Assembly: GCA_009360885.1 (NCBI GenBank)
Contig: SPEL01000002.1
Coordinates: 743,501-807,500, forward strand
DNA: 64,000 nt
Origin: Sphingobium sp.
GTDB taxonomy: Bacteria > Pseudomonadota > Alphaproteobacteria > Sphingomonadales > Sphingomonadaceae
Direction: 5' to 3'
In this document: positions 36,954 through 57,876 of the stretch, piece after piece
Position numbering within the stretch: position 1 is the stretch's first letter
How the letters are laid out: each line of letters starts with the position of its first letter
The notes under the pieces: generated by a model
The model's input: only the letters and a program-made list of their open reading frames with translations
Told to the model about the DNA's origin: nothing
The model's database searches: none
Translations under genes and position numbers: made by a program

Positions 36954-37217
36954 GATATTCCAGATATTCTCCATCGTCAAGGACCAAATACAACCAAGTA
37001 CCATTGATTATGCTGCCATATTTTAAACGTGATTTTTCAACCTAATTTCATAATTGGGGTGCAAATCTGGGCTTCGTTCTCTGGCCTATATTTTAACCAG
37101 ATAAACATATACTCCAATTTGGATCATATTTCCCGTCACGCTTACTGTATAGCCCGTCTTAAGTGATTGACAATCCCCCAAGTACCGACGATGTTTTCAA
37201 GCAACGGAGAATTAAAT

Positions 37218-40397: not shown

Positions 40398-40407
40398 GGC
40401 ACAACCC

Positions 40408-41331: not shown

Positions 41332-41672
41332 CGACCGACATTACATATCTAAGTGGGTATCGGCTAATGTGGATTTTTGTGATGTTCGATCTGCCCGTGG
41401 GGACCAAACAGCAATCGCGCGAGGCAACCAAATTCAGAGAATTCTTACTCGATCAGGGGTTTGAGATGAGCCAGTTTTCGGTCTACGCTCGTTTCTGCAA
41501 CGGTAAAGACAGCTATGAGTCGCATCTCCGAAAGATTGAACGCAATCTGCCAGAGAAAGGCGACATCCACGTACTGACCTTCACGGACAAGCAATATGAA
41601 AATATCATACGATTTTCGAGTCAACGTCGCCAGAAACAACGAAAAAACCCAGATCAACTGGCGTTATTCTGA
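41328..41672 (+). CDS. cas2: CRISPR adaptation protein Cas2
   Basis: A 114-residue Cas2. MWIFVMFDLPVGTK is the first ferredoxin-fold strand with the usual Asp, FLLDQGFEMSQFSVYARFC the next element, and the C-terminus is basic (SSQRRQKQRKNPDQ). I start at the ATG at 41328, coupled to cas1 by ATGA; a later ATG at 41367 is less likely. With Cas1 it forms the spacer-insertion complex. Confidence 0.95.
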   Translation: MTTDITYLSGYRLMWIFVMFDLPVGTKQQSREATKFREFLLDQGFEMSQFSVYARFCNGKDSYESHLRKIERNLPEKGDIHVLTFTDKQYENIIRFSSQRRQKQRKNPDQLALF

Positions 41673-41692
41673 TAATCCGGCCCAAAAAGCCA

Positions 41693-41749
41693 AAGCCAGA
41701 TGCAGTGTTTTTTCATTTAAAAACAAAAATTTAACACCACATCTGGCTT
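41693..41749. terminator. Inverted repeat at the cas2 side of the array
   Basis: AAGCCAGATGCAGTGTT and AACACCACATCTGGCTT form a 17-bp stem with two mismatches around an AT-rich loop. The right arm includes the first five bases of the first repeat. Read on the minus strand, the stem is followed by TTTGGCTTTTT, so it would end a pre-crRNA coming from the right. On the plus strand no T-run follows. It could instead be an AT-rich leader signal. Confidence 0.6.
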
Positions 41750-43561
41750 AGCAGTTCAGAAATCGCAGGCCAAGCGCAACACGCTGCCAAAGGTTATAGC
41801 TTCTAGCGCAGGCTTAGCAGTTCAGAAATCGCAGGCCAAGCGCAACCAAGGACACGATAGTGTCCATCAGGAAGTTGGCTTAGCAGTTCAGAAATCGCAG
41901 GCCAAGCGCAACATACTTCAGGTCGATGACCTTCAGCCAACCGGCTTAGCAGTTCAGAAATCGCAGGCCAAGCGCAACAGAAAAGAGCGCCATAAGGAGA
42001 CTGCACCCGGCTTAGCAGTTCAGAAATCGCAGGCCAAGCGCAACTAGCCGGCAATACTGCCGTTCTTAGCGCGAGGCTTAGCAGTTCAGAAATCGCAGGC
42101 CAAGCGCAACATCGAAGCATTGGGCGTCCCATACCGCCTGGGCTTAGCAGTTCAGAAATCGCAGGCCAAGCGCAACAGGAGCTGTGGGGACGCGTCGACA
42201 TCGCGCGGCTTAGCAGTTCAGAAATCGCAGGCCAAGCGCAACATGAGCCGCCCCGATGCGCGGATCGTAGCGGGCTTAGCAGTTCAGAAATCGCAGGCCA
42301 AGCGCAACATCGTTGCTGCGGTAGCCTCGTTGATTACCGGCTTAGCAGTTCAGAAATCGCAGGCCAAGCGCAACATAACGCCATATTGAGCAAGGGCTAC
42401 CTCAGGCTTAGCAGTTCAGAAATCGCAGGCCAAGCGCAACTGGTCGCAGTCAGGCTGCGTCTGCTTGGAGGGCTTAGCAGTTCAGAAATCGCAGGCCAAG
42501 CGCAACAATGAATCAGATATAGCCAACAGCAAAACAGGCTTAGCAGTTCAGAAATCGCAGGCCAAGCGCAACACCGCCCGCGCTCGGTGATTTTGCCACA
42601 CTGGCTTAGCAGTTCAGAAATCGCAGGCCAAGCGCAACAAGCAAAAGCTGGCGTCTGATGTTAACATGGGCTTAGCAGTTCAGAAATCGCAGGCCAAGCG
42701 CAACGACGAACACCCGTCGTCGATGAACAATGGCGGCTTAGCAGTTCAGAAATCGCAGGCCAAGCGCAACGCGATAGCGCCATGATCGACCAGAACCTGC
42801 GGCTTAGCAGTTCAGAAATCGCAGGCCAAGCGCAACACCACGATTAACTGGGTGTTGGGGACCGAGGGCTTAGCAGTTCAGAAATCGCAGGCCAAGCGCA
42901 ACAGTGGCAACGCGCGCGTGTCGGAGCTTAGGGCTTAGCAGTTCAGAAATCGCAGGCCAAGCGCAACGTTTCGCGCGTCCTGCCCAAGCTGGTAGAAGGC
43001 TTAGCAGTTCAGAAATCGCAGGCCAAGCGCAACTGCGCTCCGCATAAGCCTTCAACCCGCCTCGGCTTAGCAGTTCAGAAATCGCAGGCCAAGCGCAACT
43101 CACAGTATAATGGCGTAGGTATTTTGTCTGGCTTAGCAGTTCAGAAATCGCAGGCCAAGCGCAACGCATCCTCTGATTGATGATGCGACCGGCGCGGCTT
43201 AGCAGTTCAGAAATCGCAGGCCAAGCGCAACAGATTTAACGGTCAAGGACCGGCGCGGGGCGGCTTAGCAGTTCAGAAATCGCAGGCCAAGCGCAACTGA
43301 CTTGCGCGGGGCAACGTGACGCGAAGTGGCTTAGCAGTTCAGAAATCGCAGGCCAAGCGCAACATATCTTTTGGGGTCCCATTTTGCCAAGAGGGCTTAG
43401 CAGTTCAGAAATCGCAGGCCAAGCGCAACGGTTCCCTCAGAGCTACCACCGCCCCGGAAGGCTTAGCAGTTCAGAAATCGCAGGCCAAGCGCAACCGCCG
43501 GTGACGCTGTGCCAGATGGCGCGCAGGCTTAGCAGTTCAGAAATCGCAGGCCAAGCGCAAC
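41745..43561 (-). CRISPR. Type II-C CRISPR array, 28 repeats
   Basis: Twenty-eight identical 36-bp repeats alternate with 27 spacers, all 30 bp except one of 29 bp (42903-42931). On the plus strand the repeat begins GGCTTAGCAG and ends AAGCGCAAC; the crRNA sense is the other strand, beginning GTTGCGCTTGG, because II-C repeats start with GTTG/GTTT and the tracrRNA anti-repeat pairs with that strand. No repeat shows a mutation, which suggests recent activity or copying. A possible 28th spacer (43562-43591) is followed only by a repeat-like AGCAGTTCAG inside a receptor gene. The repeat end lacks the clear -10 box present in Neisseria repeats. Confidence 0.99.
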
Positions 43562-43580: not shown

Positions 43581-44741
43581 TTGTTTAAGGCGCGCAGTAA
43601 GCAGTTCAGTCAGGAAATTCGTTTGTCCGGGGCTGCCTTTGATGATCTGATCGACTGGACCGTCGGGGGTTATTATTATCATGCAGATAATAATTTTTCC
43701 GGGTCCAATATATTATATCCCGGAAAGCCATTTCAGAATTTGAACGGGCCGGATGACGATATAACCTCAAAGAATAAGTCGCTCTTTGCGCAGCTTATTT
43801 TACACCCTACAGACAGGTTTAACGTCACTGGCGGCATCCGCTATACCAACGATAGCAAAGATTATATCTATCGTCGTTTTAACCCGTTCATGCCGGGCGT
43901 CCCGACATATACACCGGCTGGTATATTGACGGGCGTGACCAGTGACTATGAAGCGAACAAGGTCGATTATCGACTAAGTGTTGACTATCGCTGGTCCAGT
44001 GAACTCATGACTTATGCGCAGGTTTCCACGGGTTTCCGTGGTGGCGGTACAAATTCCCGCCCGTTCGTGCCAGAGCAAGCGGTTCCTTTTTATCCTGAAA
44101 CCATGACGGCCTATGAGGTTGGTTTCAAAAGCGATTTGCTTGATAGGCGGTTGCGGGTGAACGGATCATTTTTCATCAATGATTATCAGGATATTATTTT
44201 CACGAACCTCTCCCCCACACCCAATAGCCAGAATAACGCCACACCCACCAATGTCGGCACAGCTAAATTTAAGGGTGCTGAACTGGAAATCACCACACGA
44301 CCCGTTGATGGTTTATTGATTGACGGGAGTATTAGTTATCTCGACTTCCAGCTAAAATCCTTCACGGCCACAGGCGTGACAATTATAGGGGTAACACTGG
44401 ATAGTAAGGCACCATTTGTATCTAAATGGAAATTTGCGGCTGGCGTGCAATATGCCGTAGAAACTGAAATTGGTACAATCACCCCACGGCTTGACTATAA
44501 TTACCAATCTTCTTTCTATACCAACATTAATAATGATCCACTCTCGATGGTGCCGCGCCGTGGTATATTTAATGCCCGAATAACATTCGATTCTCTGGAT
44601 AAGGACTGGAGGCTATCGATTGCCGCAAAGAATCTGTTTGACAAATATTATTATAACAACAGATTTTTCAATGTGGGCCTTAGCTCTGCCCAGCCCGCAC
44701 CACCGCGTGAAATATCGGTAACGCTACGGCGTAATTTCTAA
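43581..44741 (+). pseudogene. TonB-dependent receptor, N-terminal half missing
   Basis: The frame encodes about 386 residues of barrel only: SKQFSQEIRLSGAAFDDLIDWTVGGYYYHA at the start is an internal segment of sphingomonad receptors, and the end (EISVTLRRNF) is a normal C-terminus. No signal, TonB box or plug is present, and none is found on the other side of the CRISPR locus. The protein cannot work as a receptor. Coding begins within ~25 bp of the last repeat, so the array edge and the gene were joined by a rearrangement. The sulfatase downstream was probably its partner. Confidence 0.9.
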
Positions 44742-44802
44742 CGAGTATGGGGAAGGCAAGATATGCCTTCCCTCTTCCATCCTTATGAAACAGGAGGATA
44801 TT

Positions 44803-46263
44803 TTGACAAATATTCCGTTATCCCGCCGATCTTTACTGACCTCGGTCGCCAGCGCAACGGGCGCGGTGATGCTATCCGGCGTGGTCGCCAATCCTGTTTC
44901 AGCGAAAAAGGCCGGGCCGACCAGTCAGGCCGGAACGTCTCGTCCCAATATCCTGTTCATTATGGCGGATGATCTCGGTTATGCTGATTTATCCTGTTAT
45001 GGCAGGCGGGAATATGAAACCCCCGCTATTGATAGCCTTGCAGCAAATGGAGTACGTTTCCTGCAGGGCTATGCCAATTCGGCGGTATGCTCGGCAACCC
45101 GCACGGGGCTGATTACGGGTCGGTATCAGAACCGCTTGCCTGTCGGGCTGGAAGAGCCTTTGGGGGTAAGGGATGTGGGCCTGCCACCAGAGCATCCCAC
45201 CCTGCCCTCTCTGCTGAAGAAGCAGGGCTATGAAACCAGCCTGATCGGAAAATGGCATTTAGGATCGCTTCCTAAATATGGGCCACTGCAAAGCGGCTAT
45301 GACCATTTCTGGGGCTTTCGCGGCGGCGGGGTCGATTATTTCACCCACAAAGGTTTTGCAGGGCCAGATTTATGGGATGGTGATGACCCTATCAACGCCG
45401 AAGGCTATATGACCGATCTGCTGGGCCAGCGGACCATCGATAGCATTTCCAACAGCGCCAAAGGGACAAAGCCCTTCTTCATATCCCTGCATTTCAGCGC
45501 CCCGCATTGGCCATGGGAAGGCCCCGGCGATGCAGCCGAAGCCAGAAGGCTGGATGAAAGCGGAAAACCCACCGCGATTTTCCATTATGATGGCGGGTCG
45601 ATGGAGATTTATTCTCAGATGGTCACGCGCATGGATATGCAGGTGGGCCGGATCATTGAGCATCTGAGCAATCTGAATTTGCTGGATAATACTATCATCA
45701 TCTTCACCAGTGATAATGGCGGAGAGCGTTTTTCCAACACATGGCCCTTTACCGGACGCAAGACAGAGTTGCTGGAGGGCGGACTGCGCATACCGACCAT
45801 AGTGCAATGGCCACGCCGAATAACGGGGGGCAAAACCAGCGATCAGGTCGTTATTTCCATGGACTGGCTACCAACATTATTGGCAGCAGCAGGCGGGGCA
45901 CCAGCCGCAGATTATCCATCGGACGGCATGAATTTAATACCACATATTGTTGATGGCGCGCCCTCCATCGAAAGAACATTAAGCTGGCGGTATAAGAATC
46001 TGGATCAGCAGGCTTGCCGTCAGGGAGATTGGAAATATCTCAAGATATTGGAAAACACGTTCCTGTTTAATGTGGTGGATGACCCGATGGAACGAGCCAA
46101 TCTGAAGGACCGCTTCCCGGAAAAATATGCGCAGGTGAAGGCTGCTTATGATGCGTGGGACGCACAGATGCTGCCATTGAGCCCGGACACGTCCAGTCAT
46201 GGCTTTACCGCAGACCAGCTCGCCGATCATTATGGCGCAAAAATGCAAAATAGCGTTCGGTAG
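44803..46263 (+). CDS. Tat-exported sulfatase (S1 family)
   Basis: A 486-residue sulfatase. AGGAGG lies six bases before a TTG at 44803, which I take as the start rather than the ATG at 44785, since the ribosome site lies inside that longer frame. SRRSLLTSVASATGAV is a Tat signal. Metal residues are in MADDLGYADLSCYG; the modified Cys is C96 in VCSATRTGLITGRY; IGKWHLG and SDNGGE complete the site. The motif is C-S-A-T-R, with Ala where C-x-P-x-R sulfatases have Pro. It would remove sulfate from a carbohydrate or aryl compound in the periplasm. It is 60 bp downstream of the broken receptor. Confidence 0.92.
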   Translation: MTNIPLSRRSLLTSVASATGAVMLSGVVANPVSAKKAGPTSQAGTSRPNILFIMADDLGYADLSCYGRREYETPAIDSLAANGVRFLQGYANSAVCSATRTGLITGRYQNRLPVGLEEPLGVRDVGLPPEHPTLPSLLKKQGYETSLIGKWHLGSLPKYGPLQSGYDHFWGFRGGGVDYFTHKGFAGPDLWDGDDPINAEGYMTDLLGQRTIDSISNSAKGTKPFFISLHFSAPHWPWEGPGDAAEARRLDESGKPTAIFHYDGGSMEIYSQMVTRMDMQVGRIIEHLSNLNLLDNTIIIFTSDNGGERFSNTWPFTGRKTELLEGGLRIPTIVQWPRRITGGKTSDQVVISMDWLPTLLAAAGGAPAADYPSDGMNLIPHIVDGAPSIERTLSWRYKNLDQQACRQGDWKYLKILENTFLFNVVDDPMERANLKDRFPEKYAQVKAAYDAWDAQMLPLSPDTSSHGFTADQLADHYGAKMQNSVR

Positions 46264-47172: not shown

Positions 47173-47344
47173 TTAACCAGCGCCTCCCCCTCACTAAACA
47201 TCGCTTGATAAATATTCAACATATTGAAAATAAATGTTAAAATTAAAAACTCCATCCCCTTGACATAATATCTTTATAAGAATAGTTCTTTTGAAGAATT
47301 AAAAAATATCAAAAAACCCTTGCCGTAGGGGAGAGGAAAAAAAC

Positions 47345-50161
47345 ATGGGAAATAAAGACAGGATAATTGCGTCCGGCGTAGGTCGCCTTGTAGGTGGATC
47401 TTTGCTGGCGCTGGCCATCTCCATCGGGGTGGGCCATGCAAACACAGCCGATGACAGCGCCTCGCAGGAGGCAAATACCCCACAGGGAGACATCATCGTC
47501 ACCGCATCTCGTGCGGCGAGTTCGGGTATGCAGGCCCCCACCCCCACCACCGTCGTCGGGGCGGACCTGATTAACCAGCGCCAATCCGCCAACGTCGCCC
47601 AGATATTGAATGAAATTCCAGCCTTTAAGGCCAGCACAACCCCGGCGGCCAATGCCGTTCGTACGCAGACGCCCGGCGCGTCTACCGCAGATTTGCGTGG
47701 ACTTGGCGCGGCTCGTACGCTGGTGCTGGTCAATGGTGTGCGGGTTCCTCCGCTCGCCCCGGCCAGCAATGGCACGGGCACCATTCCCGTTGCGCCGGAC
47801 CTTAATACTGTTCCAGCCCTGATGGTTGAGCGTATGGAAGTTGTAACCGGCGGCGCATCGGCCCAATGGGGTTCTGATGCCGTTGCCGGTGTTGTAAACA
47901 TCATCCTGAAAAATAAATTCGAAGGGCTGGAGGCCCGCATTCAAGGCGGTATCAGCGGTCAGGGTGATGCCGGCCAATATCGCATTGGCGTGCTGGCAGG
48001 CACCAGCTTTGGTGAAGGCGGCCACATTGTTGCTGGTGCAGATTATGTGAAACAGAACGAGGTTGGCGATCTTTACACCCGGTCATGGGGCCGCAAGGAA
48101 TATGGACGCGTTGCCAATGCAGGATATGCCACCAATGGGCAGGCGGCCAATATCATCACCGAAAACGTCCATGCTTCTTCATCGCCTGGCGGTTTGATCC
48201 TTGGCCCGGTTGGTTTTTCGCTGCGTAATTATGAATTCACATCTGCCAACAGTGTCGCACCATTTGATATGGGCGGCATTCGCAATGCTTCCATGCAAAT
48301 TGGGGGACAGGGGCAGTCCCTTTCCAAAGGGATTTCGCTGGCACCGGGGGTAGAACGTTTTAACCCCTATGTGCGCGCGGAATATGAATTTAGTGATGCG
48401 TTCACACTATCTGTCGAAGGATCTTATTCCTATTCCAAGGGTAATGTAACGGTTCTGCCGTCCCGCGACAGCAGCATCACCATTTATAACGACAATGCCT
48501 ATTTGCCGCAGGTCGTGAAGGATGCACTTGGCACGGCACCCAGCTTTACCATGTCGCGCCTCAATTATGACCTCGGCCTTGCGATGATTGAAATCGTCAA
48601 CAAAACGCCGCGTATTACCATTGGGGCGTCTGGCGATCTGGGCGGTGGATGGTCATGGGATGGTCATCTGGGCTGGGGTCGTAACACCTATAAGGGATCG
48701 GCGTCCAATAACCGTCACAAAAACAATTTTGCCTTCGCAACAGATGCTGTCGAACATAATGGGGAAATAGTATGCCGGGCAACCATAGCAGGAGATGCGG
48801 CGTATAATCCTGCGGCGGCAGGATGCGTTCCTATCAACCTGTTTGGTAATGGCACGCCCGATCAGGATGCCATTGATTATGTATCGCGCACATCGCATTT
48901 CGGCGCGAAATACACCCAGAAAACGGCGGCGCTTAACCTGCGCGGGGAACCATTTTCGACATGGGCCGGGCCGGTTGCCTTTGCCATCGGCGCTGAATAC
49001 CGCAAGGAAGAACAGGTCGTGACGGCAGATGCCGGATCTGCGGCAGGCATTATGGAAACGTCCAATGCGGCCCCCTATTCCGGCAAATTTGACGTGAAAG
49101 AAGCCTATGCAGAAGTCGTGGTGCCGCTGGCAGCAGATACGCCTTTCCTGCGCAAGCTTGATGTAAACGGTGCCATTCGCGTGGCGGATTATAGCAGCGC
49201 TGGCACGCAAACCACATGGAAGCTCGGCGGAACATGGGAGCCTGTATCAGGCCTGCGTTTCCGCGCCACGCGGTCCCGCGACATTCGCGCACCTGCGATT
49301 TTCGAACTGGCAAGCAATGGTGCGGTTGCCTATCTGCCAGCGGTTGTGAATGGCGTGTCCACGGGGCCAATTGCCCAAAATGCAACGATCGGTAACCCCA
49401 ACTTGCGGCCAGAACGGGCCGATACCTTCACCGTTGGCGTGGTGGTGCAGCCTGCTGCTGTTCCGGGCTTTACTCTCAGCGTTGACTACTATGACATCAA
49501 CCTGAAGGATGCGATTACAACCGTGCCCGGTTCCACCGCAGGACCGCTTTGTTCCGCAGGCCAGACCTATTTCTGTTCGTTGTTTACATATGCAGGCGGG
49601 GTGCCGGTGGCATATAATTCCGGTTACATTAATGCGGCGACCATCAACCCGCGCGGTCTGGATATTGCGGGCAGCTATCGTCTGCCGCTTAATCGCCTGA
49701 GTGATGGATGGAATGGCAGCCTGACCCTGTCCTTCAGCGGGACTTATATTTTCCAATATGACAGCAACCTTGGCAATGGTTCTCGGACTATTGATTATGC
49801 GAGGGATAATAGCGCCGCAGGGATTGCCCGGTTCCGTTCCAATACGTCACTTACTTATGCAAATGGCGGCTTCTCCCTTACCGGACAGGTACTGACCATC
49901 TCATCCGGCAATATTGATAATACCGCCAATCTTAACCCGGCGACATCCATCAACACCAATCATGTTCCCGCCGTTGCCTATGCCAATTTACAGGCAAGCG
50001 TGGATGTGATGGACAATTTCCGTCTATTTGCCGGTATCAATAACCTGTTTGACAAAGATCCGCCGCCGCTTCCTTCGGCAACGCTCTTCAACGTCACCAA
50101 TGGTGTATATTATGACACGATTGGCCGCGCCTTCACCATCGGCGCGAACGTGAAGTTCTGA
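47345..50161 (+). CDS. TonB-dependent outer-membrane receptor of the catabolic cluster
   Basis: A 938-residue receptor: signal peptide ending near VGHANTAD, TonB-box-like GDIIVTASRA (~48-57), plug domain with VLVNGVRVPP and MEVVTGGASAQWGSDAVAGVVNIIL, and a barrel ending FTIGANVKF. GGGAGAGG lies before the ATG. The MmgE/PrpD gene starts 7 bp after its stop, so it heads the operon running to about 56387 or 57290. Upstream DNA is AT-rich with TTGACA at 47260 and a small palindrome AAGAATAGTTCTT (47279-47291) that may be a control site. It likely imports the pathway substrate. Confidence 0.95.
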   Translation: MGNKDRIIASGVGRLVGGSLLALAISIGVGHANTADDSASQEANTPQGDIIVTASRAASSGMQAPTPTTVVGADLINQRQSANVAQILNEIPAFKASTTPAANAVRTQTPGASTADLRGLGAARTLVLVNGVRVPPLAPASNGTGTIPVAPDLNTVPALMVERMEVVTGGASAQWGSDAVAGVVNIILKNKFEGLEARIQGGISGQGDAGQYRIGVLAGTSFGEGGHIVAGADYVKQNEVGDLYTRSWGRKEYGRVANAGYATNGQAANIITENVHASSSPGGLILGPVGFSLRNYEFTSANSVAPFDMGGIRNASMQIGGQGQSLSKGISLAPGVERFNPYVRAEYEFSDAFTLSVEGSYSYSKGNVTVLPSRDSSITIYNDNAYLPQVVKDALGTAPSFTMSRLNYDLGLAMIEIVNKTPRITIGASGDLGGGWSWDGHLGWGRNTYKGSASNNRHKNNFAFATDAVEHNGEIVCRATIAGDAAYNPAAAGCVPINLFGNGTPDQDAIDYVSRTSHFGAKYTQKTAALNLRGEPFSTWAGPVAFAIGAEYRKEEQVVTADAGSAAGIMETSNAAPYSGKFDVKEAYAEVVVPLAADTPFLRKLDVNGAIRVADYSSAGTQTTWKLGGTWEPVSGLRFRATRSRDIRAPAIFELASNGAVAYLPAVVNGVSTGPIAQNATIGNPNLRPERADTFTVGVVVQPAAVPGFTLSVDYYDINLKDAITTVPGSTAGPLCSAGQTYFCSLFTYAGGVPVAYNSGYINAATINPRGLDIAGSYRLPLNRLSDGWNGSLTLSFSGTYIFQYDSNLGNGSRTIDYARDNSAAGIARFRSNTSLTYANGGFSLTGQVLTISSGNIDNTANLNPATSINTNHVPAVAYANLQASVDVMDNFRLFAGINNLFDKDPPPLPSATLFNVTNGVYYDTIGRAFTIGANVKF

Positions 50162-50168
50162 GGGCGCC

Positions 50169-51734
50169 ATGAAGTCCGCTAAAAGCGCATTGGCCGTTAA
50201 CCGGCGGGGCTTTGTAACGGGCGCGGTGTTGGGGGCTTCGGCCCCCGCCCTTCCCGCCATGGCCCAGTTTTCGACGCAAAATACCAATGGTGGGTCAGCC
50301 ATTAAAGCGCGGCAGGCACCCGGTGTCGGACCGGAAGATGGTGGTGTTACCGGCCTTCTGTCATCACATATCGTCCGCGTAGATTATACGCAGATTGACG
50401 CGAAAATCCTCGCCAGCCTGAAGCTCCGCCTGCTTGATCTGATCGGTTGCGCGATTGGTGGCACGCGGGGAGAAGGAATGGCCGCCCTGGCAGCAACTGT
50501 CGCAGACAGCGGCAAAGAAGGCGCAAGCGTGCTGGGCACAGGGCGCACAGCCTCTGTGCGAGAGGCGGCCATGGCTAATGCTGTTCTGGCGCGGGCCTAT
50601 GATTTTGAGGTTATGCATGTGGTCGTGCAAGATGCACAGGTGCCATCGCATCATAGCCCCACCACAGTGATGAGCGCCCTTGGGCTGGCGGAACAGACCC
50701 ACGCCGATGGTCGCGCCTTTGTCACTGCCTTGTCGGTGGGGGATGACCTTGCCGCCCGCACACTTGCGGCATCGGGAATTGATTTTAACGATGGATGGGA
50801 TGGCGCACCGCTGCATTCCACCATGGCCGCCGCCGCCATCGCCGCCCGTTTTCTGGGCCTCGACACCGAACAAACACGCCAAGCCCTCGGTATGGCGGCG
50901 GATCAGCTAAGTGGTACGGTTCAAAGCCTTTGGGACGGCGGCGGCGCGTGGAAGGTGCAGCAAGGCACCGCTGCGCGTAACGGCATATATTCCGCCGAAC
51001 TTGCGAAGGCGGGATGGAGCGGGATGTCGGATGCTCTGCTGGCTCCCTGTGGTTTTTACCGCCAATATACGCCGGGCTGTGCGCGCCCCGAATTACTAAC
51101 AGCCGATTTGGGCAAAATCTGGTATGGGGAGACCTATTTCAAGCCATGGCCATCTTGTGCGGCCAACCATCCGACAATCGAAAGCGCCATTGCCCTGCGT
51201 CAGCGCACCGGCATTGCGCCCGCCGATATTGAGAAGGTCCGCATATATGTTCAGCCCCATGTACTGAAACTCTTTATCGCAAAACCATTGCGCCCCGGCC
51301 CTTCGCCGCATTCTCAGGCAAACTTCAACCTGAAATTTGCCTGCGCAACCGCCCTCCTTCGCGGCAATTTGCGGCAGGATGATTATGAACCGCAGGCTAT
51401 GGCTGATCCTGCCCTCCATGACCTGATGGCGCGGACAGAATTGCTGGCCCTGCCCACCGGGCAGAAGGGCGTTATCGTTGAGGTAACGCACAAAAATGGG
51501 CAGATTTCACGCGAAGCCCTGCCTGGCCGCCCCCGCCATTACGCCGATGTTGATGGCACCACATCAGCAGAGGTTGAAGCCAAGTTCCGCCAGCAGGTGG
51601 CCTTTGCAGGCAATGTTCCAACCACCCTTGCCGATCAGATTGTGCGCCGTGTTGCTGTCATTGAACAGGAAAAAGACATGGCCAGCTTTGTTGCGCTTCT
51701 GGCGCAGGCAACCCGTTTTCCCAAAGGACGCTAA
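50169..51734 (+). CDS. Tat-exported MmgE/PrpD-family protein
   Basis: A 521-residue protein. The N-terminus NRRGFVTGAVLGASAPALPAMAQ is a twin-arginine signal, so the protein is exported folded. From ~80 it follows the MmgE/PrpD fold: LLDLIGCAIGGTRGEGMAAL, AMANAVLARAYDFEVMH, HSPTTVMSALGLAE, LGMAADQLSGTVQSL and the C-terminal YFKPWPSCAANHPTIESAI. Known members are cytoplasmic dehydratases, isomerases or decarboxylases of carboxylic acids (2-methylcitrate, cis-aconitate), so an exported one is unusual. It lies between the receptor and a SnoaL-like gene and may act early on the imported compound. Confidence 0.88.
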   Translation: MKSAKSALAVNRRGFVTGAVLGASAPALPAMAQFSTQNTNGGSAIKARQAPGVGPEDGGVTGLLSSHIVRVDYTQIDAKILASLKLRLLDLIGCAIGGTRGEGMAALAATVADSGKEGASVLGTGRTASVREAAMANAVLARAYDFEVMHVVVQDAQVPSHHSPTTVMSALGLAEQTHADGRAFVTALSVGDDLAARTLAASGIDFNDGWDGAPLHSTMAAAAIAARFLGLDTEQTRQALGMAADQLSGTVQSLWDGGGAWKVQQGTAARNGIYSAELAKAGWSGMSDALLAPCGFYRQYTPGCARPELLTADLGKIWYGETYFKPWPSCAANHPTIESAIALRQRTGIAPADIEKVRIYVQPHVLKLFIAKPLRPGPSPHSQANFNLKFACATALLRGNLRQDDYEPQAMADPALHDLMARTELLALPTGQKGVIVEVTHKNGQISREALPGRPRHYADVDGTTSAEVEAKFRQQVAFAGNVPTTLADQIVRRVAVIEQEKDMASFVALLAQATRFPKGR

Positions 51735-51737
51735 ATT

Positions 51738-52670
51738 ATGACGACCAGCCCTTCCTCCGTTCAGGCCCGCCGAGACGCCCTTTCGGCGGTCATGACGACC
51801 TATCTTGATGCGCTGGTGGCGCACGATCCTTCACGGTTGCCACTCGCTGCGACATGCCGGTTCACCGAAAATGGCGCGGAAGTCCCGCTAGGTGAGGCTT
51901 TGTGGCAAACGATTGATCGTCTGGACAGCTATCGTGTGGATTATACCGACCCAGATTCCGGCCAGATTGGGTGTCATGTTTCCATCGTGGAAAACGACCT
52001 TGCCGGTTTGCTCGCCATTCGCCTGAAAATAGAAGATGGCCTGATTTCTGAGATAGAAACCATTTTGAACCGGGGGGCGCCCCTCGCCCTGTCTATGCCG
52101 CCGTGCGAAGGTTTATGGTTTGAGGCAGAGGCCCCGGAAACCCGGCTCGACCGTGAAACACTGGCGCGGGAGACCGAAAACTACCTTGATGCGGTGGCAT
52201 CCAGCGATGGCACCAAGGTTAAGTTTAACCCGGACTCCGCACTGCGTCTGGAAAATGGTACGTTGATGGCAATCGGCCCCAATGATTACTGGCCCTATCC
52301 CTTAAAGCCCATTGCGGACGAAGATAGCTGGTTTTTTGCTGTGCGGTCCAGCCTCGGCATGCCAGCGGATGAGCAACTGAGCACGGGCCTGTATTCCTTC
52401 ATCACCAGCTATGACAATGCGCGTTTCCCGATCATTGATGTGGAACGCCAGATTGTGTTCGGCGTCTGGAATTTCCGCCGCAAGGGCACAGTAAAAGGCG
52501 TCACATTCCGCGGTAAATATTACCCCCATATGGAGCGCACCCAATTCCCCAACGAAAACCTGCTGTTGCAGGCGTTCAAGTTCCGCAATGGCGGAATTAC
52601 GCGGGTTCAGGGCGTGTTCCTGAACGCCAATGTCTATCGCGCAGGAACCGGGTGGGACCAGCGCGGCTGA
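51738..52670 (+). CDS. Two-domain SnoaL/NTF2-like protein 1
   Basis: A 310-residue soluble protein with no signal. It seems to hold two similar halves, each beginning with a helix (LDALVAHDPSRLPLAATCRFTENGAEV; ENYLDAVASSDGTKVKFNPDSALRLENGT) and ending in a long strand pair, as in NTF2/SnoaL-like cone folds. A related protein is encoded at 55524. Such folds serve as isomerases, dehydratases or cyclases. It starts 4 bp after the MmgE/PrpD stop. The family may be the one named DUF8021, but I am not certain. Confidence 0.7.
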   Translation: MTTSPSSVQARRDALSAVMTTYLDALVAHDPSRLPLAATCRFTENGAEVPLGEALWQTIDRLDSYRVDYTDPDSGQIGCHVSIVENDLAGLLAIRLKIEDGLISEIETILNRGAPLALSMPPCEGLWFEAEAPETRLDRETLARETENYLDAVASSDGTKVKFNPDSALRLENGTLMAIGPNDYWPYPLKPIADEDSWFFAVRSSLGMPADEQLSTGLYSFITSYDNARFPIIDVERQIVFGVWNFRRKGTVKGVTFRGKYYPHMERTQFPNENLLLQAFKFRNGGITRVQGVFLNANVYRAGTGWDQRG

Positions 52671-52735
52671 ATATAAGGCAGCCCCCATTACCCGGCCTGC
52701 CTTTCTAATGCGGCCCTCTCCAGAGAGTGTATGAA

Positions 52736-54196
52736 ATGTCACAACAAACAGATTATTTTGCCCCGATGGCGTTTGAAGCCGATGTCGCGGATTGTCAGGT
52801 GGAAGGGACAATCCCGGATGGCCTCAATGGTGCCTTTGTCCGCGTTGGGGGCGATTGGGCATTTCCCCCCAAACATAAGGATGATTCCATCTTCAATCAG
52901 GATGGATATGTCAGCCGTTTCCGCATTAAAAATGGCCGGGTGGATTATAAGGGCCGCTGGATACAGACGGAGCGCTATAAAAATAACCGGGCGGCCGGAC
53001 GGCAGTTATATGGCTATTATCGCAATCCTTTCGATGCCGAACCAGAGGTCGCCCATGTTGACCAGCCATGGCGTAACACCGTTGCGAACACAGCGGTAGA
53101 GGTGAATGCCGGACGCGTTTTTGCGCTCAAGGAAGATGCTCTGCCAACGGAAATTAATCCTATTACGCTAGAAACAAAGGGGGCCTGTGATTTTGGCGGA
53201 AAGTATAAAAGCCAGACCTTCACCGCCCACCCGAAAATTGATCCGGTTACGGGCGAGTTACTGACCTTTGGATATGAAGCAACCGGGCTGGTCAGCGATG
53301 ATCTGTGGTTTTATGTTATTGATCGCAATGGCAATGTCACCCGCGAAACCCGCATCAAGGTGCCCTATGTCAGTATGGTTCATGACTGGGCGATCACCGA
53401 TAAGCACGTTATTTTCCCAGTCTTTGGCTATGTGACGGATATGGACCGGCTGAAGGCAGGTAAAATCCACTGGGCATGGGACCGCAACGCCCCCACTTAT
53501 TATGGTATCTTGCCGCGTGACGGGGATGCAAAGGACATAAGATGGTTCAAGGGGCCTAATCGTGGCATTGTCCACACCTTCAACGCCCGCACGGAAGGCG
53601 ATAAGGTGATATTGGAAGCCCCGATTTTTGATTCCAACCCCTTTCCTTTTTTCCCTTATCTGGATGGTTCCAAATGGAATGCGGCAGAAAGCCGTTCCTT
53701 CATTCGCCGGATCACTTTTGATCTTGGGTCAAAGGATGATGGCTATGTCGAGGACACGCTGTTCCCTGATGTACCTGTGGTTGATCTGGGGCGGGTGGAT
53801 GAACGCTTTATGGGCAAGGATAACCGCTATGCCTATACATCCTTCAACGATCCGACAAAGCCGCTGGACCGCGACAGGGTGGGAACTGGTGCCCGCCGCA
53901 TCACCAACAGCTATGGCATATTCGACATGAAGGACCAGACTATGCGGTCATTCTTCGCCGGCACCACCCACAGCCTTCAGGAGGTTAGCTTTGTTCCGCG
54001 AAGTGCGGATGCCGAAGAAGGGGATGGCTGGTTGATCGGGACGGCCAGCAACTATGCCAATATGAACACGGAAATGGTGATTGCGGATGCAACCCGGCCC
54101 GAAGAAGGGACCGTTGCCCGTATCATCCTGCCATTCCGGGCCAGCGCGCAGGTTCATGGCCGCTGGTATAATGACGATCAGGTCGATTTTGGGTGA
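52736..54196 (+). CDS. Carotenoid/lignostilbene-type cleavage oxygenase
   Basis: A 486-residue non-haem iron oxygenase. The four His ligands of the seven-bladed propeller are visible: H165 in FTAHPKID, H216 in MVHDWAI, H280 in GIVHTFNA and H474 in AQVHGRWY. GAFVRVGGDWAFPP and NQDGYVSRF at the start and the Glu in LQEVSFVPR fit the family. Members cut a C=C bond with O2, in carotenoids or in stilbenes from lignin; sphingomonads use the latter. I start at the ATG at 52736. The MFS gene overlaps or follows closely. The substrate is inferred only by context. Confidence 0.93.
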   Translation: MSQQTDYFAPMAFEADVADCQVEGTIPDGLNGAFVRVGGDWAFPPKHKDDSIFNQDGYVSRFRIKNGRVDYKGRWIQTERYKNNRAAGRQLYGYYRNPFDAEPEVAHVDQPWRNTVANTAVEVNAGRVFALKEDALPTEINPITLETKGACDFGGKYKSQTFTAHPKIDPVTGELLTFGYEATGLVSDDLWFYVIDRNGNVTRETRIKVPYVSMVHDWAITDKHVIFPVFGYVTDMDRLKAGKIHWAWDRNAPTYYGILPRDGDAKDIRWFKGPNRGIVHTFNARTEGDKVILEAPIFDSNPFPFFPYLDGSKWNAAESRSFIRRITFDLGSKDDGYVEDTLFPDVPVVDLGRVDERFMGKDNRYAYTSFNDPTKPLDRDRVGTGARRITNSYGIFDMKDQTMRSFFAGTTHSLQEVSFVPRSADAEEGDGWLIGTASNYANMNTEMVIADATRPEEGTVARIILPFRASAQVHGRWYNDDQVDFG

Positions 54197-54201
54197 ATCA
54201 T

Positions 54202-55527
54202 ATGAACAGCGCAGAAGGCGGAGCTGCCCCGCAAACGCAGCAGGAAAAAGACTGGACGCCAATGTCCATTTATACATTGGCAGTCATCACCATCATCTAT
54301 GCGCTCAGCTTTCTTGACCGCACGATCCTCAGCCTCGTTCTGCCGCTGATTAAGCAGGATCTGGAACTGTCGGATACAATGCTGGGTATCATTACTGGCT
54401 TTGCCTTTGTGTTGCTATATTCCGGCCTTGGTGTACCGATTGCGCGCCTTGCCGACCGCAGCAATCGTCGTAACATTTTGGCGATTGGGTGCGGCGCGTG
54501 GAGCGTGATGACTGTTGCCACGGGCGCTGTCACCAGCGTGTTTCAGCTTGCCCTCACACGGTTTCTGATGGGCGCGGGGGAGGCAGCCGGAATTGCCCCT
54601 TCAACGGCGCTGCTGTCTGATCGTTTCAGTGCCAAGGCCCGCCCGCTTGCGATGTCCATTATGACATCAGGTTCGGGTATTGCCGCACTGGTGATGCTGC
54701 CGATCATTGGCGTCATTGCCCAAAATCATGGCTGGCGCATGGCCTATTATGTGGCCGGCATAACCGGCATATTGATGGCTATATTGTTGTTCCTGACTGT
54801 GCCGGAACCGGCCCGGCGGAAATCACCCGATGGCAAAGCCCCCGAAGCCCTTCCGTTTAAGGTAGTTTTGCGTCAGTTGATGAAGCGCCGCAGCTTTCCA
54901 CTCATCTGTGTTGCGGGGGCGTTTCTGGCGATTAACGCTTATGCCATGCTGACATGGACACCGACCTTCCTGATGCGTGTCCATGGCTTTTCACCGGCAG
55001 AAGCCGGGGCGAGCTTTGGCCCCATAAAGGGCTTTTCCAATATTGTCGGGGTGATTTTCGGCGGGGCTATCACCACCTGGGCGGCCCGGCGTAATCCGCG
55101 CTGGCTATTGCTGGTCCCGGCCATTGGCGCGGCGGTGGCTATGCCTGCGGAATTGCTGTTCCTGCTGTCCGATCATATGCCATCGGCGTTTATCGGCCTC
55201 GCAATTGCCTCCTTTGCTGGCGTCATCCATTTCGGCCCGACTTATGCAGCCATTGCCGCCATTGTTCCGGGCACAATGCGGGCAACCACCGCCGCCATTT
55301 TCCTGTTCTGCGTCAACATAGTCGGGCAAATTGTGGGGCCGCTGGTCATTGGCTGGCTCAATGATGTGTGGGCAGTCCATTTCGGCGATGATGCGATACG
55401 CTATTCGATGATTATCGGCGGGATATGCGCCTTTATCGCATCCATCATATTGGTACTGGCATCGCGGCATATCGGCGCGGATATCAAAGCGCAGGAACAG
55501 GGTGAACTGAAAGGAAATGAGGCATGA
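54202..55527 (+). CDS. MFS transporter, aromatic/organic acid type
   Basis: A 441-residue transporter with 12 hydrophobic segments. SFLDRTILSLVLPLIKQDLELSDTMLGIITGFAFVLLYSGLGVPIARLADRSNRRN is the spinster-like MFS N-terminus common in sphingomonad aromatic degradation clusters. GGGTG lies eight bases before the ATG at 54202; a GTG at 54193 overlaps the oxygenase stop. Its stop overlaps the next gene start as ATGA, so it is part of the operon. It would move the substrate or a cleavage product across the inner membrane. Confidence 0.92.
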   Translation: MNSAEGGAAPQTQQEKDWTPMSIYTLAVITIIYALSFLDRTILSLVLPLIKQDLELSDTMLGIITGFAFVLLYSGLGVPIARLADRSNRRNILAIGCGAWSVMTVATGAVTSVFQLALTRFLMGAGEAAGIAPSTALLSDRFSAKARPLAMSIMTSGSGIAALVMLPIIGVIAQNHGWRMAYYVAGITGILMAILLFLTVPEPARRKSPDGKAPEALPFKVVLRQLMKRRSFPLICVAGAFLAINAYAMLTWTPTFLMRVHGFSPAEAGASFGPIKGFSNIVGVIFGGAITTWAARRNPRWLLLVPAIGAAVAMPAELLFLLSDHMPSAFIGLAIASFAGVIHFGPTYAAIAAIVPGTMRATTAAIFLFCVNIVGQIVGPLVIGWLNDVWAVHFGDDAIRYSMIIGGICAFIASIILVLASRHIGADIKAQEQGELKGNEA

Positions 55528-56387
55528 CGCCCAACCAGTCAACGCGGGAAGAACTGCATAAAATCGCGGATTTATACCGCAAGGCCTATGTTGCCCATCA
55601 GCCGGAAATAGCCCCGATTGCTGCCAATGTGCGCTTTAGCGAGAATAACGTCGCCTTATCCTTTCCCGATGGGACATGGGATACGGTTGGCGAGGAAGTC
55701 GGCCCGGCATTAACGCTGGTGGATGAAAAAAGCGGCGGCATTGGTATTTATACCGCCATTCGCACGCTGGATGTTCCGGGCTTCCTCGCCATACGGTTAA
55801 AGGTTAATGATGGGCAGATTATCGAGATTGAACATATAGTCTCGACGCGCCGAAACCTCTCCGGGCCGCCCACCCCCATTGGTGCGGTCGAAGATTTCAC
55901 CCACGATCCTGATCTGATACGGGACGTCGCCCCCCACGAAACAATGGCGCGGGATGACCTCATCCGTATTGCCAATGGATATTGGGATACGCTGGAAAAT
56001 AACACCGGCGAACTGCGCGGTGTGGCATTTAGCGCGGATTGCACCCGATTTGAAAATGGCATGGCTTTCCCAGATGTGGAACGACTGTTCACATTGGGGC
56101 GCTATCGTTTCAATGAGCGGGTACGTGACCGGGATTTCATGCTGGTGGATGAACCGCGTGGATTGGTGATGAGCCGCGCCTTCATCGATCATAAGGGGGT
56201 GCTGGATCAATATGAGCTGACCGACGGAACGATTGTGGATTCGATCTTCCGTGAACCCCATAGCTGGAGCGTGCTTGAGCTGTTCAAGATAAAATCAGGC
56301 ATCATCACGGCGATTGAGGCGACCTTCATAGCGGTGCCTTATTACATGCCTTCCCCATGGACGCCGACGCAGCGCTGGATGGCGTAA
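55524..56387 (+). CDS. Two-domain SnoaL/NTF2-like protein 2
   Basis: A 287-residue relative of the protein at 51738. Shared landmarks are AHxP near the start, RFxENxxxxxxxxxxWxTxxE/D, GxxxxxxxxxxxPGFLAIRLKxxDGxIxEIExI, the second-half helix with the Y-x-D/x-T segment, and FKxxxGxIxxxxxxFxxxxY at the end. The ATG overlaps the MFS stop (ATGA), with AAGGA upstream. Keeping two versions in one operon suggests that they act on successive intermediates or form a heteromer. Confidence 0.7.
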   Translation: MTPNQSTREELHKIADLYRKAYVAHQPEIAPIAANVRFSENNVALSFPDGTWDTVGEEVGPALTLVDEKSGGIGIYTAIRTLDVPGFLAIRLKVNDGQIIEIEHIVSTRRNLSGPPTPIGAVEDFTHDPDLIRDVAPHETMARDDLIRIANGYWDTLENNTGELRGVAFSADCTRFENGMAFPDVERLFTLGRYRFNERVRDRDFMLVDEPRGLVMSRAFIDHKGVLDQYELTDGTIVDSIFREPHSWSVLELFKIKSGIITAIEATFIAVPYYMPSPWTPTQRWMA

Positions 56388-56388
56388 T

Positions 56389-56495
56389 CTGGAGCATGAC
56401 CGGATCTACTGAACCGGATCATGCTCGCGTTATCTTTTGTTTTCCGCATTTTCCGAGCCAGCAGATGATCCCTTCTGCTTCGAAAATGCTCTAGA
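56389..56495. repeat. Palindromic intergenic repeat family A, diverged copy 3
   Basis: Same two-hairpin layout as the copies at 19723 and 36742, but with changed arms: GAGCATGA/TCATGCTC replaces GAGCGGTT/AACCGCTC, and GCATTTTC/GAAAATGC replaces GCAATTTC/GAAATTGC. The middle (TTTTGTTTTCCGCA, CCAGCAGATGAT) is still recognisable. It lies in the only sizeable gap of the catabolic operon. Confidence 0.8.
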
Positions 56496-56507
56496 TTCAG
56501 GAGTGAT

Positions 56508-57290
56508 ATGATGTTTGTGACCTCGCACGATGGCACCCGCCTCCATGTAAGCGTAGAAGGGGATGAAAACGCCCCTGCAATCCTGTTTTCCCATAATCTG
56601 GGTGGGGACTTGCATGGTTTTGATGGTCAGGCCGAAGCCTTTAAAAAGGACTATCGCGTTATTCGTTTTGACACGCGCGGTCATGGTCAGAGCGACGCAC
56701 CGGATAAGCCCTATGCGCTGGACGATCTGGGGCGCGATGCTCTGGCGATTTTGGATGCCCTTGGCATTGAACAAGTGGACTATGTTGGCGTTTCACAGGG
56801 CGGCATGACCGGCATGTGGTTGGCCGTCCATGCCCCGGACAGAATCCGTAAACTGGTTCTGGCGAACACCACCCCCTTCATCCCCAACAAACCCATATGG
56901 GATGAACAGGCAGCCCGTGCCCGCGCTGAGGGTATGGACAGGCTGGCCAGCGAAACGATCACAAGCTGGGTGAGTGAAGCTTTCCGCGAAACACATCCCG
57001 AAAAGCTGAAGCAGATGATCGGTGTGATGGCGGATATGCCGGTTGCCGGTTTTGCGGGCAATGTGTGCGTTCTACGCGATGTTGATATGCGCGAGGAACT
57101 ACCGAAAATAGCTATGCCGGTTCTGGTTATTGGCGGTGCGGAGGATGGCCCGCGTGGCGCAGCCTTGCCCATTATGACCGCCGCCGTGCAAAATGGCACA
57201 AGCTACATCATCGATGGGGCGGCGCATTTATCGCATATCGAAAATACAGATGCCTTTAATAAGGCCGTTCTGGGTCATCTAATTGCATAA
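56508..57290 (+). CDS. Alpha/beta hydrolase, 3-oxoadipate enol-lactonase-like
   Basis: A 260-residue hydrolase. The oxyanion region is FSHNLGGDLHGF, the nucleophile Ser is in VGVSQGGMTG, Asp in IGGAEDGPRG and His in GAAHLSHIEN. Overall it is PcaD-like, with VIRFDTRGHGQSDAP. PcaD opens the enol-lactone in protocatechuate breakdown; here no other pca genes are present, so it may open a related lactone or ester. AGGAG lies just before the ATG pair at 56508. It follows repeat A copy 3 and converges with the MarR gene. Confidence 0.88.
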   Translation: MMFVTSHDGTRLHVSVEGDENAPAILFSHNLGGDLHGFDGQAEAFKKDYRVIRFDTRGHGQSDAPDKPYALDDLGRDALAILDALGIEQVDYVGVSQGGMTGMWLAVHAPDRIRKLVLANTTPFIPNKPIWDEQAARARAEGMDRLASETITSWVSEAFRETHPEKLKQMIGVMADMPVAGFAGNVCVLRDVDMREELPKIAMPVLVIGGAEDGPRGAALPIMTAAVQNGTSYIIDGAAHLSHIENTDAFNKAVLGHLIA

Positions 57291-57332
57291 AATTGCCCGA
57301 CAGCCTATAAAATATCAGGAAGAGAAAGGGGA

Positions 57333-57824
57333 TTATTCCCCTTCTTTTTTATAGTCTTCCCCGCAATAGAGATATAACAGACGCAGAAATTCGCGGGCAT
57401 TTTCTTGCCCCATCCGTGCAACCACACGGGCGTGTACTTCATCATGCATTTTTGCCAGCTTGGCGGCATATTCCTCCCCCGCCGGGGTGAGGTGTAAATG
57501 CTTTATCCGTCGATCATTCTTGCTTTCCGTACGTTTGACGAAGCCCTGATCCACCAGATGAGCGATGCGCGGCACAAGATTATTGGGTGTCATGCCCAAT
57601 AAAGCCGAAAGATGGGATGGCTGGCACCCCGGATTACTACGCATCGTTAACAATATCGCATAATATTGCGTTGTAATTTCAAATGGTCCAAAAACATCAG
57701 AGAATATGGTATCCGCAACAGATATTGATCTTCTGATATAAAACCCTACCGCATTTTGAAGTTCAGGAGGAAGATTAATTCCATTTTTATCTTCTGATTC
57801 TTTTTTTCTTTTTGATTTTGTCAT
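57333..57824 (-). CDS. MarR-family transcriptional regulator
   Basis: A 163-residue winged-helix protein. The recognition part is LSALLGMTPNNLVPRIAHLVDQGFVKRTESKNDRRIKHLHLTPAGEEY, with the D-x-R wing typical of MarR. It begins with a highly basic tail (TKSKRKKESEDK). GAGAA lies upstream of the ATG at 57824. MarR proteins often answer to phenolic acids. Its place at the end of the catabolic operon, and the large palindrome in its own promoter, suggest that it controls both itself and the cluster. Confidence 0.92.
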   Translation of the reverse strand: MTKSKRKKESEDKNGINLPPELQNAVGFYIRRSISVADTIFSDVFGPFEITTQYYAILLTMRSNPGCQPSHLSALLGMTPNNLVPRIAHLVDQGFVKRTESKNDRRIKHLHLTPAGEEYAAKLAKMHDEVHARVVARMGQENAREFLRLLYLYCGEDYKKEGE

Positions 57825-57845
57825 TTATATTCTCATAAATACATG

Positions 57846-57876
57846 TTCTGATCATATAATGATCATAATATCAGAA
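57846..57876. promoter_or_regulatory. Palindromic operator upstream of marR-type gene
   Basis: TTCTGAT and ATCAGAA are 31 bp apart end to end around an inner ATGATCAT palindrome, 22 bp upstream of the MarR start. The surrounding DNA is very AT-rich. Likely the autoregulatory site. Confidence 0.65.

Follow-up and report, generated by a model that had tools for sequence, protein, structure and literature searches.

The window, by which we mean the whole stretch of 64,000 nucleotides of Sphingobium sp. DNA that was analyzed (contig SPEL01000002.1, positions 743,501 to 807,500), carries a cluster of eight genes that includes a homolog of the lignostilbene dioxygenase LSD8 (Table 1). The eight genes had been named in an original prediction made from the sequence alone, and all of them (8/8) were found at the predicted positions in the list of open reading frames and their translations. 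Six of the eight proteins were backed by Pfam, with matches to the receptor plug and TonB barrel, the N- and C-terminal MmgE_PrpD domains, RPE65, MFS_1, Abhydrolase_1 and MarR, and the two proteins referred to here as Sno1 and Sno2 had no Pfam or NCBIfam match at an E-value of 0.01.

From the receptor through the hydrolase, the genes are separated by 7, 3, 56, -4, -4 and 120 bp. The original description of genes packed with overlaps or gaps of a few bases was accurate for most of the cluster, but the hydrolase and MarR genes are not simply packed with the others, because a 120-bp gap with an inverted repeat precedes the former and the latter is convergent. This inverted repeat (GAGCATGACCGG...CCGGATCATGCTC) occurs once in the window when up to 3 mismatches are allowed; possibly, it is an attenuator, a terminator or a mobile repeat.

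Table 1. Features of the cluster and of its promoter region (positions in the window)
Feature	Position	Strand	Length	Basis or remark
Promoter-like TTGACA (-35-like)	47260..47265	+		followed by N16 and ATAGTT (-10-like); overlaps the palindrome
Candidate MarR operator, TAGTTCTT-TTG-AAGAATTA	47283-47301	+		43 bp before the receptor ATG
TonB-dependent receptor	47345-50161	+	938 aa	plug and barrel: Pfam PF07715, PF00593
MmgE/PrpD-family protein with Tat-type signal	50169-51734	+	521 aa	Pfam PF03972, PF19305
Sno1, tandem NTF2-like protein	51738-52670	+	310 aa	predicted structure
Oxygenase, homolog of LSD8-type lignostilbene dioxygenases	52727-54196	+	489 aa	RPE65, 378.8 bits
MFS transporter	54193-55527	+	444 aa	MFS_1, 181.3 bits
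Sno2, tandem NTF2-like protein, module marker	55524-56387	+	287 aa	predicted structure
Inverted repeat between Sno2 and hydrolase genes	56392-56426	n/a		sequence
PcaD-like alpha/beta hydrolase	56508-57290	+	260 aa	Pfam Abhydrolase_1; TIGR02427, 229.5 bits
MarR-family regulator, convergent	57333-57824	-	163 aa	PF01047

Conservation of the cluster and of its promoter region

Seven of the eight genes were found in the same order in three other genomes of the genus (G144, G175 and G206), which have the receptor, PrpD, oxygenase, MFS, Sno2 and PcaD-like genes, an opposite-strand MarR gene and, beyond it, two DUF3237 genes, without Sno1. Because of this recurrence the arrangement is not due to chance, and the proposal of one catabolic unit was supported. 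Identities to the window proteins were 70% (receptor), 59-61% (PrpD), 73-75% (oxygenase), 67-70% (MFS), 69-71% (Sno2), 57-58% (PcaD-like hydrolase) and 48-50% (MarR), the values for MFS, hydrolase and MarR referring to the loci L079, L089 and L090; G144 and G175 are very close to each other, and the three genomes are not three independent cases. Scattering of the genes in relatives, or an earlier characterization of the same cluster, had been named as evidence that would overturn the proposal. In the nearest relatives, the same-genus genomes, the genes stayed together, and no description of this cluster was found in open-licence papers, nor any of LSD8 clusters beyond PMC8191317. The same literature yielded nothing pairing lignostilbene with SnoaL, or MmgE with a carotenoid oxygenase and a receptor, and the SYK-6 locus tags near SLG_27300 led only to an unrelated paper.

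Among 94 same-genus genomes, orthologs of Sno2 (E <1e-90, a threshold at a gap noticed afterwards, the next best match having 3.7e-56) and of the oxygenase (E <1e-120) were present in the same 10. At E 0.001, Sno-family matches were obtained in 16 of the 94, that is, in 6 beyond these 10. PrpD matches of E 1e-40 or better occurred in 9 of the 94; four of them belong to this cluster, namely the window copy and those of 57-59% identity in 3 of the 93 other genomes, and the remaining five are 30-32% identical. When genome contigs were scanned with a Sno2 profile, 31 loci were found, including Sphingomonadales, gammaproteobacterial metagenome-assembled genomes and a Variovorax one. An oxygenase match lay in the fetched flanks at 26 of the 31 loci (at least 44% identical at 24), and at the five loci without such a match the contig ended less than 10 kb from Sno2 on at least one side. 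Clusters of Sno-family genes lay within 10 kb of an oxygenase gene in 23 of 82 cases, against 3.0 expected under random placement (counted over 23 family genomes, those of 149 in which a Sno match was present). In G144, a Sno-family protein with 38% identity to Sno2 (L099, C1:3014025-3019149) lies 2.9 kb from the presumed LSD5/LsdF, so the association of Sno-family and LSD genes is not limited to LSD8.

The palindrome before the receptor gene had one match in the window and 0 in 100 shuffles. Its pattern was found at one place each in the window genome (G000), G144 and G175 and at none in G206, where the variant TAGTTCTATATAAAGAACTA was present at L089. G144 and G175 carry a perfect TAGTTCTTN4AAGAACTA at the same place, from which the window palindrome differs by one mismatch in an arm and by a spacer that is shorter by one base. 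At L079, L089 and L090 the receptor genes are preceded by TTGACA, a 17-base spacer and ATAGTT. The TAGTTCTT palindrome was not seen in the upstream stretches of the MarR genes that were examined. We infer that the MarR protein binds the palindrome; the conserved palindrome at the receptor promoter and the presence of a MarR gene in the cluster agree with the local control originally proposed.

The surroundings of the oxygenase-Sno2 core were compared across 36 loci, namely the window, 24 loci on genome contigs, 2 plasmid loci (L035 and L038) and 9 loci from other genomes. Dropped from this table were L091, L093 and L088 (same contigs as L045, L053 and L042, of lengths 343713, 380345 and 16223) and L084-L087 (other places in the window's own genome); L096-L099 were not included, and outside it stand L041, L046, L047, L049, L061, L067 and L068, with no oxygenase of at least 44% identity, and L083, with no Sno2 at 48%. 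The rows are not independent, since L042 and L082 lie at separate places in a single genome and L051/L052, L058/L065, L059/L062 and L079/L090 are pairs of near copies. Exactly one of DUF3237, SnoaL_4 and Sno1 was found near the core at 29 of the 36 loci, and the place of Sno1 seems to be taken in relatives by DUF3237 or SnoaL_4 genes. A DUF3237 gene was near the oxygenase at 15 of the 36 loci, a GMC oxidoreductase at 4 and a VAO-type flavoprotein at 3, the last accompanied at L048 by a cytochrome c gene (Pfam). In relatives, DUF3237 genes often stand as tandem pairs, four of the genes having been assigned by Pfam, and the SnoaL_4 protein, one copy of which was assigned in the same way, is about 190 aa long.

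When the types found in this variable third slot were mapped onto an oxygenase tree of 35 rows, at least 11 changes were required; in the Sno1-bearing clade of eight rows to which the window belongs, the three rows of the SYK-6 type form a subclade that has a DUF3237 pair and no Sno1. Identity between the L079 DUF3237 genes and phcF/phcG of SYK-6, as presumed by position, is 30-38%; PinX is 42% identical to PhcG and 38% to PhcF (PMC12607616; here and below, cited statements refer to the available portions of each paper). The swap resembles that of the beta-5 pathway, in which PcfL, of the NTF2 type, is an alternative to the DUF3237 decarboxylases PhcF/PhcG (PMC11323797, PMC12997858).

The oxygenase and its partner proteins

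The closest PDB sequences to the oxygenase were the lignostilbene dioxygenases 6xm6, 6ojr and 7qr6, with LSD4 and LSD-I leading, and the RPE65/CCD domain of the LSD family was found (PF03055, 378.8 bits) together with four His. In the alignment these His stand at LSD4 positions 167, 218, 284 and 476, which we take to be its four Fe ligands. Phe-59, Tyr-101, Lys-134 and Asn-120 are also retained, the first three of which hold the 4-hydroxyphenyl ring in the LSD family (PMC8191317). Across the aligned rows, with three PDB chains kept apart, Tyr-101 was retained in 50 of 50 and Lys-134 in 49 of 50, and the Phe-59 position is often Leu among linked oxygenase relatives. The oxygenase scored below the NCBIfam cut-offs of both LSD equivalogs (NF053778, 483 of 800 bits; NF053780, 400.4 of 650 bits). 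The LSD homology and the kept 4-hydroxyphenyl-binding residues lend support to the stilbene-type C=C cleavage that had been predicted.

In a maximum-likelihood tree of 56 rows (LSD2 and LSD3 left out; LSD5-LSD7 named by G144 position), 37 oxygenases from Sno2 loci and that of L083, which has no Sno2 neighbor, formed a clade with support 100/99, apart from LSD4, LSD5, LSD6, LSD7, LSD-I and NOV1. This group, named LSD8-type after inspection of an earlier tree, includes orthologs at L039 (77% identity) and L045 (74%). The genome G144 has eight oxygenases of the RPE65 type, one of them matching the PDB chain of SYK-6 LSD4 at 100% identity over 475 aa, and the order of their positions agrees with the SYK-6 locus tags in PMC12997858. 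The oxygenase of its cluster, 73-74% identical to the window protein, has Ile at the LSD4 Ser-283 position in the alignment, as has LSD8 (PMC8191317). Based on the LSD4 identity, this Ile, and the number and order of the oxygenases, we conclude from sequence comparison that G144 is SYK-6 or a similar strain, and likewise that the window oxygenase is the ortholog of LSD8/LsdE (SLG_27300). The SYK-6 LSD8/LsdE neighborhood has the window gene order except for Sno1; compared with it, the window has Sno1 and is without two DUF3237 genes. With this relative in SYK-6, the oxygenase clade is already known (LSD8) yet functionally orphan. LSD8 was insoluble when produced in E. coli, chaperones included (PMC8191317).

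Sno1 and Sno2, which are 27% identical to each other, were both predicted by AlphaFold as two NTF2-like halves with the same order of elements (pLDDT 86.7 and 92.3, respectively), and these predicted folds support the SnoaL-like pair of the original prediction. Among the top 50 PDB matches listed for the Sno2 model, the first six were de novo designed NTF2-like proteins, and further ones had limonene-epoxide-hydrolase-, ketosteroid-isomerase- and SnoaL-like folds; all were partial, covering 101-160 alignment columns of 287 residues with a query-normalized TM of 0.23-0.32. A single-sequence PDB search with Sno1 gave weak, chance-like matches only. Relatives of Sno1 were found at L039 (71% identity), L035 (57%), L044 (56%) and L045 (53%). 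In Sno2, H25, E40, N41, D49, R91, E101, E103, D222, H223 and K224 were invariant across 31 rows.

The closest solved sequence relative of the PrpD protein is the IDS-epimerase 2hp0. Its assignment as a methylcitrate-cycle enzyme was rejected, as TIGR02330 gave 30.6 bits against a cut-off of 458; membership in the MmgE/PrpD superfamily was supported by Pfam. The PcaD-like hydrolase came near the TIGR02427 cut-off (229.5 versus 255.85 bits) but is not a member, and lactone opening by this protein is possible. The MarR winged helix was present (PF01047, 36.4 bits, cut-off 24.6), and the best NCBIfam match of the regulator was the Saro_0803 family, at 52.3 bits and below the cut-off of 200.

Signal sequences were assessed by motif and hydropathy. 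The PrpD protein has a Tat-type N-terminus (NRRGFVTGAVLGASAPALPAMAQ), as found also at L079, L089 and L090, and the translations of Sno1, Sno2 and the oxygenase of the window start without a signal peptide. In 27 of 31 Sno2 relatives there is an N-terminal extension with a CxxxC motif, hydrophobic where scored and in some cases bearing a cysteine of lipobox type; extension and motif are both missing at L039, L040, L041 and L043, as in the window. Signal-like starts of Sno1 and Sno2 match in the five loci compared, being present in both proteins at L035, L044 and L045 and in neither at L039 and in the window. At L038, L058, L064 and L065 the oxygenase starts with a twin-arginine motif and a hydrophobic stretch after it, and RR pairs before the oxygenase in L048 and L060 were set aside, as they lay in over-long upstream frames. 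Since export-like starts differ in most relatives, Sno2 and the oxygenase need not share a compartment.

Proposed pathway and competing explanations

The original prediction knew of no described pathway with this set of genes. No characterized cluster of this make-up was found in open-licence papers, but a close parallel in logic had been missed. In it, NTF2-superfamily lyases (LdpA, PcfL) or DUF3237 decarboxylases (PhcF/PhcG, PinX) precede an LSD-family dioxygenase and make the C=C bond to be cleaved or lead to it (PMC12997858, PMC11323797, PMC12607616). The window genes are alike in logic to LdpA/LsdA (beta-1) and PcfL/LsdD (beta-5), in which an NTF2-superfamily protein makes the stilbene for the dioxygenase (PMC12997858, PMC11323797). 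They differ in the tandem build of Sno1 and Sno2, compared with the LdpA candidate of G144, which is a single SnoaL_4 protein, and in having a receptor and an MFS gene in the operon, whereas the available text of PMC12997858 implicates no transporters for the LdpA/PcfL dimers. The DUF3237, GMC and VAO-type families of the Phc (PhcC/D, PhcF/G, LsdD) and Pin (PinX, PinVW, PinU) pathways recur beside Sno2/LSD8-type genes in relatives, but none of them is in the window cluster, and its PrpD, tandem NTF2 and PcaD-like proteins are not named in the available accounts of those pathways. The cresol dehydrogenase family is taken here to be VAO-type. PhcC and PhcD belong to the GMC type (PMC8191317), and the flavocytochrome PinVW to the cresol dehydrogenase family (PMC12997858).

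With a probability of roughly 0.6, we read the cluster as a catabolic operon under MarR control, whose substrate, a phenolic dimer related to lignin, lignans or stilbenoids, would be degraded by elimination and C=C cleavage. The TonB-dependent receptor, by its family, would carry the dimer across the outer membrane. The Tat-type PrpD protein and the intracellular Sno1 and Sno2 may then perform eliminations that need no cofactor and pass through a quinone methide (dehydration, deformylation or decarboxylation); these would leave a C=C bond conjugated to a 4-hydroxyphenyl ring, and the LSD8-type iron dioxygenase, judged by its conserved active-site residues, would split this bond into two aromatic aldehydes. 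As their families suggest, the PcaD-like hydrolase would open a lactone or ester and the MFS protein would move substrate or product across the inner membrane, and MarR would repress from the palindrome over the receptor promoter. The elimination step is proposed because the genes adjoin the oxygenase, the NTF2 fold is predicted and Sno1 is partially swapped for DUF3237/SnoaL_4. The rearrangement first suggested for the Sno pair is in our view less likely than an elimination making a C=C bond of the 4-hydroxystilbene or diene type, because characterized members of both known third-slot families make such bonds. What compound is taken up, which way it is transported, and what PrpD, Sno1, Sno2 and the hydrolase would catalyze are our deductions from these comparisons.

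The dimer would probably need transport. The receptor for DDVA uptake in SYK-6 is presumably the protein named DdvT. In that system a TonB receptor and the MFS transporter DdvK serve a lignin-derived dimer, to which the window is alike by transporter type, and transporters matter for DDVA but are not implicated, in the available text, for the other dimers reviewed (PMC12997858). As a receptor and an MFS gene are present here too, our guess by analogy is that the substrate is charged and carboxylated.

A further-reaching proposal is tentative and, on balance, rather doubtful. Sno1/Sno2-type tandem-NTF2 proteins could form a third, undescribed class of C=C-forming lyases beside LdpA/PcfL and PhcF/PhcG/PinX, with Sno2 periplasmic in most lineages. 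Together with the LSD8-clade dioxygenase they would provide a widespread route for carboxylated phenylpropanoid dimers, such as cell-wall 8-8' or 8-5' diferulates, in which the PcaD-like hydrolase would open a lactone, carboxyl or formyl groups would be lost to give a stilbene or diaryl-butadiene, and cleavage would follow; such substrates would be charged, hence the receptor and the MFS transporter.

Several results weigh against the reading of the cluster as an operon for a phenolic dimer. The reactions of all eight proteins are deduced from sequence, and no reaction was found in the open-licence literature for their orthologs. In the one published assay found, LSD8 lysate did not detectably cleave either lignostilbene or DCA-S (PMC8191317). 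Six more oxygenases of Sno2 loci fall outside the LSD8-type clade; at L035, L044, L066 and L081 they are a second copy beside an LSD8-type one, and at L041 and L061 they are the only oxygenase seen (36-39% identity at both). A Pfam scan placed Sno1 and Sno2 outside SnoaL_4 (PF13577), the family of LdpA, and the Sno2 profile (31 rows) matched the LdpA candidate of G144, a single SnoaL_4 protein, with an hhalign probability of only 0.2%. Sno2 looks exported in 27 of 31 relatives, and most linked oxygenases do not. The exclusivity of the third slot (permuted labels, mean 16.6, sd 3.0, P 0.00005) comes from a three-way test that was post hoc, threshold-dependent and uncorrected for kinship; Sno1 against DUF3237 alone gave a Fisher P of 0.028, two third-slot types were found at 3 of the 36 loci and none at 4, and tblastn with the DUF3237 queries used found no match in the window. 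Among the loci compared, the combination of PrpD, PcaD-like hydrolase and core was confined to the window and three genomes of the genus, of which two are near-identical; L045 has only a 27% PrpD, and L041 has both genes (PcaD-like, 44%) with the more distant oxygenase.

Sno1 and Sno2 might instead be binding or carrier proteins or post-cleavage isomerases, with PrpD and the PcaD-like hydrolase acting on acyclic products. NTF2-like folds can bind without catalysis, and the signal-like start with CxxxC of most Sno2 relatives (27/31), together with its lack in most linked oxygenases, would suit such a role, but the ten invariant residues of Sno2 represent strong polar conservation, and the place of Sno1 is apparently filled by DUF3237 and SnoaL_4, families with characterized C=C makers (PMC12997858). 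We regard this explanation as somewhat unlikely.

An unlikely alternative is that a simple plant stilbenoid (resveratrol, pterostilbene or similar) is detoxified or used, its existing C=C bond being cleaved while the other enzymes handle side groups, esters and products. The retained 4-hydroxyl-binding residues are consistent with it, as is the activity of LSD4 on resveratrol and pterostilbene, which is lower than that on lignostilbene (PMC8191317), and the Saro_0803 family nearest to the MarR protein (below cut-off) has a number adjacent to that of lsdD/NOV1, Saro_0802 (PMC12997858, PMC8191317). However, a simple stilbenoid leaves unexplained both the frequent partner Sno2 and the DUF3237, SnoaL_4 or Sno1 gene present at 32 of the 36 loci.

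Cleavage of a carotenoid, apocarotenoid or other polyene, a substrate class entertained in the original prediction, is very improbable despite membership in the Pfam RPE65 superfamily, given that the NCBIfam 8'-apo-carotenoid 13,14-cleaving model gave 195.6 bits against a cut-off of 675 and the LSD models 400-483 bits, that Tyr-101, Lys-134, Asn-120 and the four His are kept, and that LSD4 and LSD-I lead the PDB matches.

Genomic surroundings and significance of the cluster

The window genome, which is 79.6% complete, contains seven oxygenases of the RPE65 type, six DUF3237 matches, three LigB matches and four LdpA-like matches, and one LdpA-like gene (C4:566186-566875) and a NOV1/LSD4-group oxygenase are 2.1 kb apart. 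Judged from sequence matches, this content fits an organism equipped for lignin-type dimers. The nearest LdpA homolog (C6:26218-26904, 68%) has an in-frame TAA in the matched stretch. A Sno-family gene elsewhere in the genome (L085, C3:217155-220516), with one TGA in the matched stretch, adjoins a DUF3237 gene and a GMC oxidoreductase gene, the latter 73% identical to that of L050, in another lignan-type neighborhood. Two oxygenases with identical protein sequence were found on different contigs (C3:147039-148442 and C6:40924-42327), and matches to a receptor, to GMC and to DUF3237 lay less than 10 kb from either copy; the two oxygenases represent either a true duplication or an assembly artefact.

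Within the window, positions 43581-46263 upstream of the cluster hold a TonB receptor barrel of 386 aa, possibly truncated as no plug match was found in it, followed by a sulfatase with a Tat-like start. Unrelated to the cluster, positions 37167-42974 hold Cas9 (37167-40397), Cas1 (40408-41331) and then a CRISPR array with at least 19 copies of a 36-base repeat at a 66-base period.

The cluster gives the orphan LSD8/LsdE a conserved partner in Sno2, probable co-workers and a candidate operator, and the role of LSD8/LsdE becomes directly testable through defined cluster genes. If the proposed pathway is true, a family without a Pfam model would join the enzymes by which lignin- or lignan-type dimers are made ready for cleavage, and an apparently exported form of that family would be present in alpha- and gammaproteobacterial genomes.

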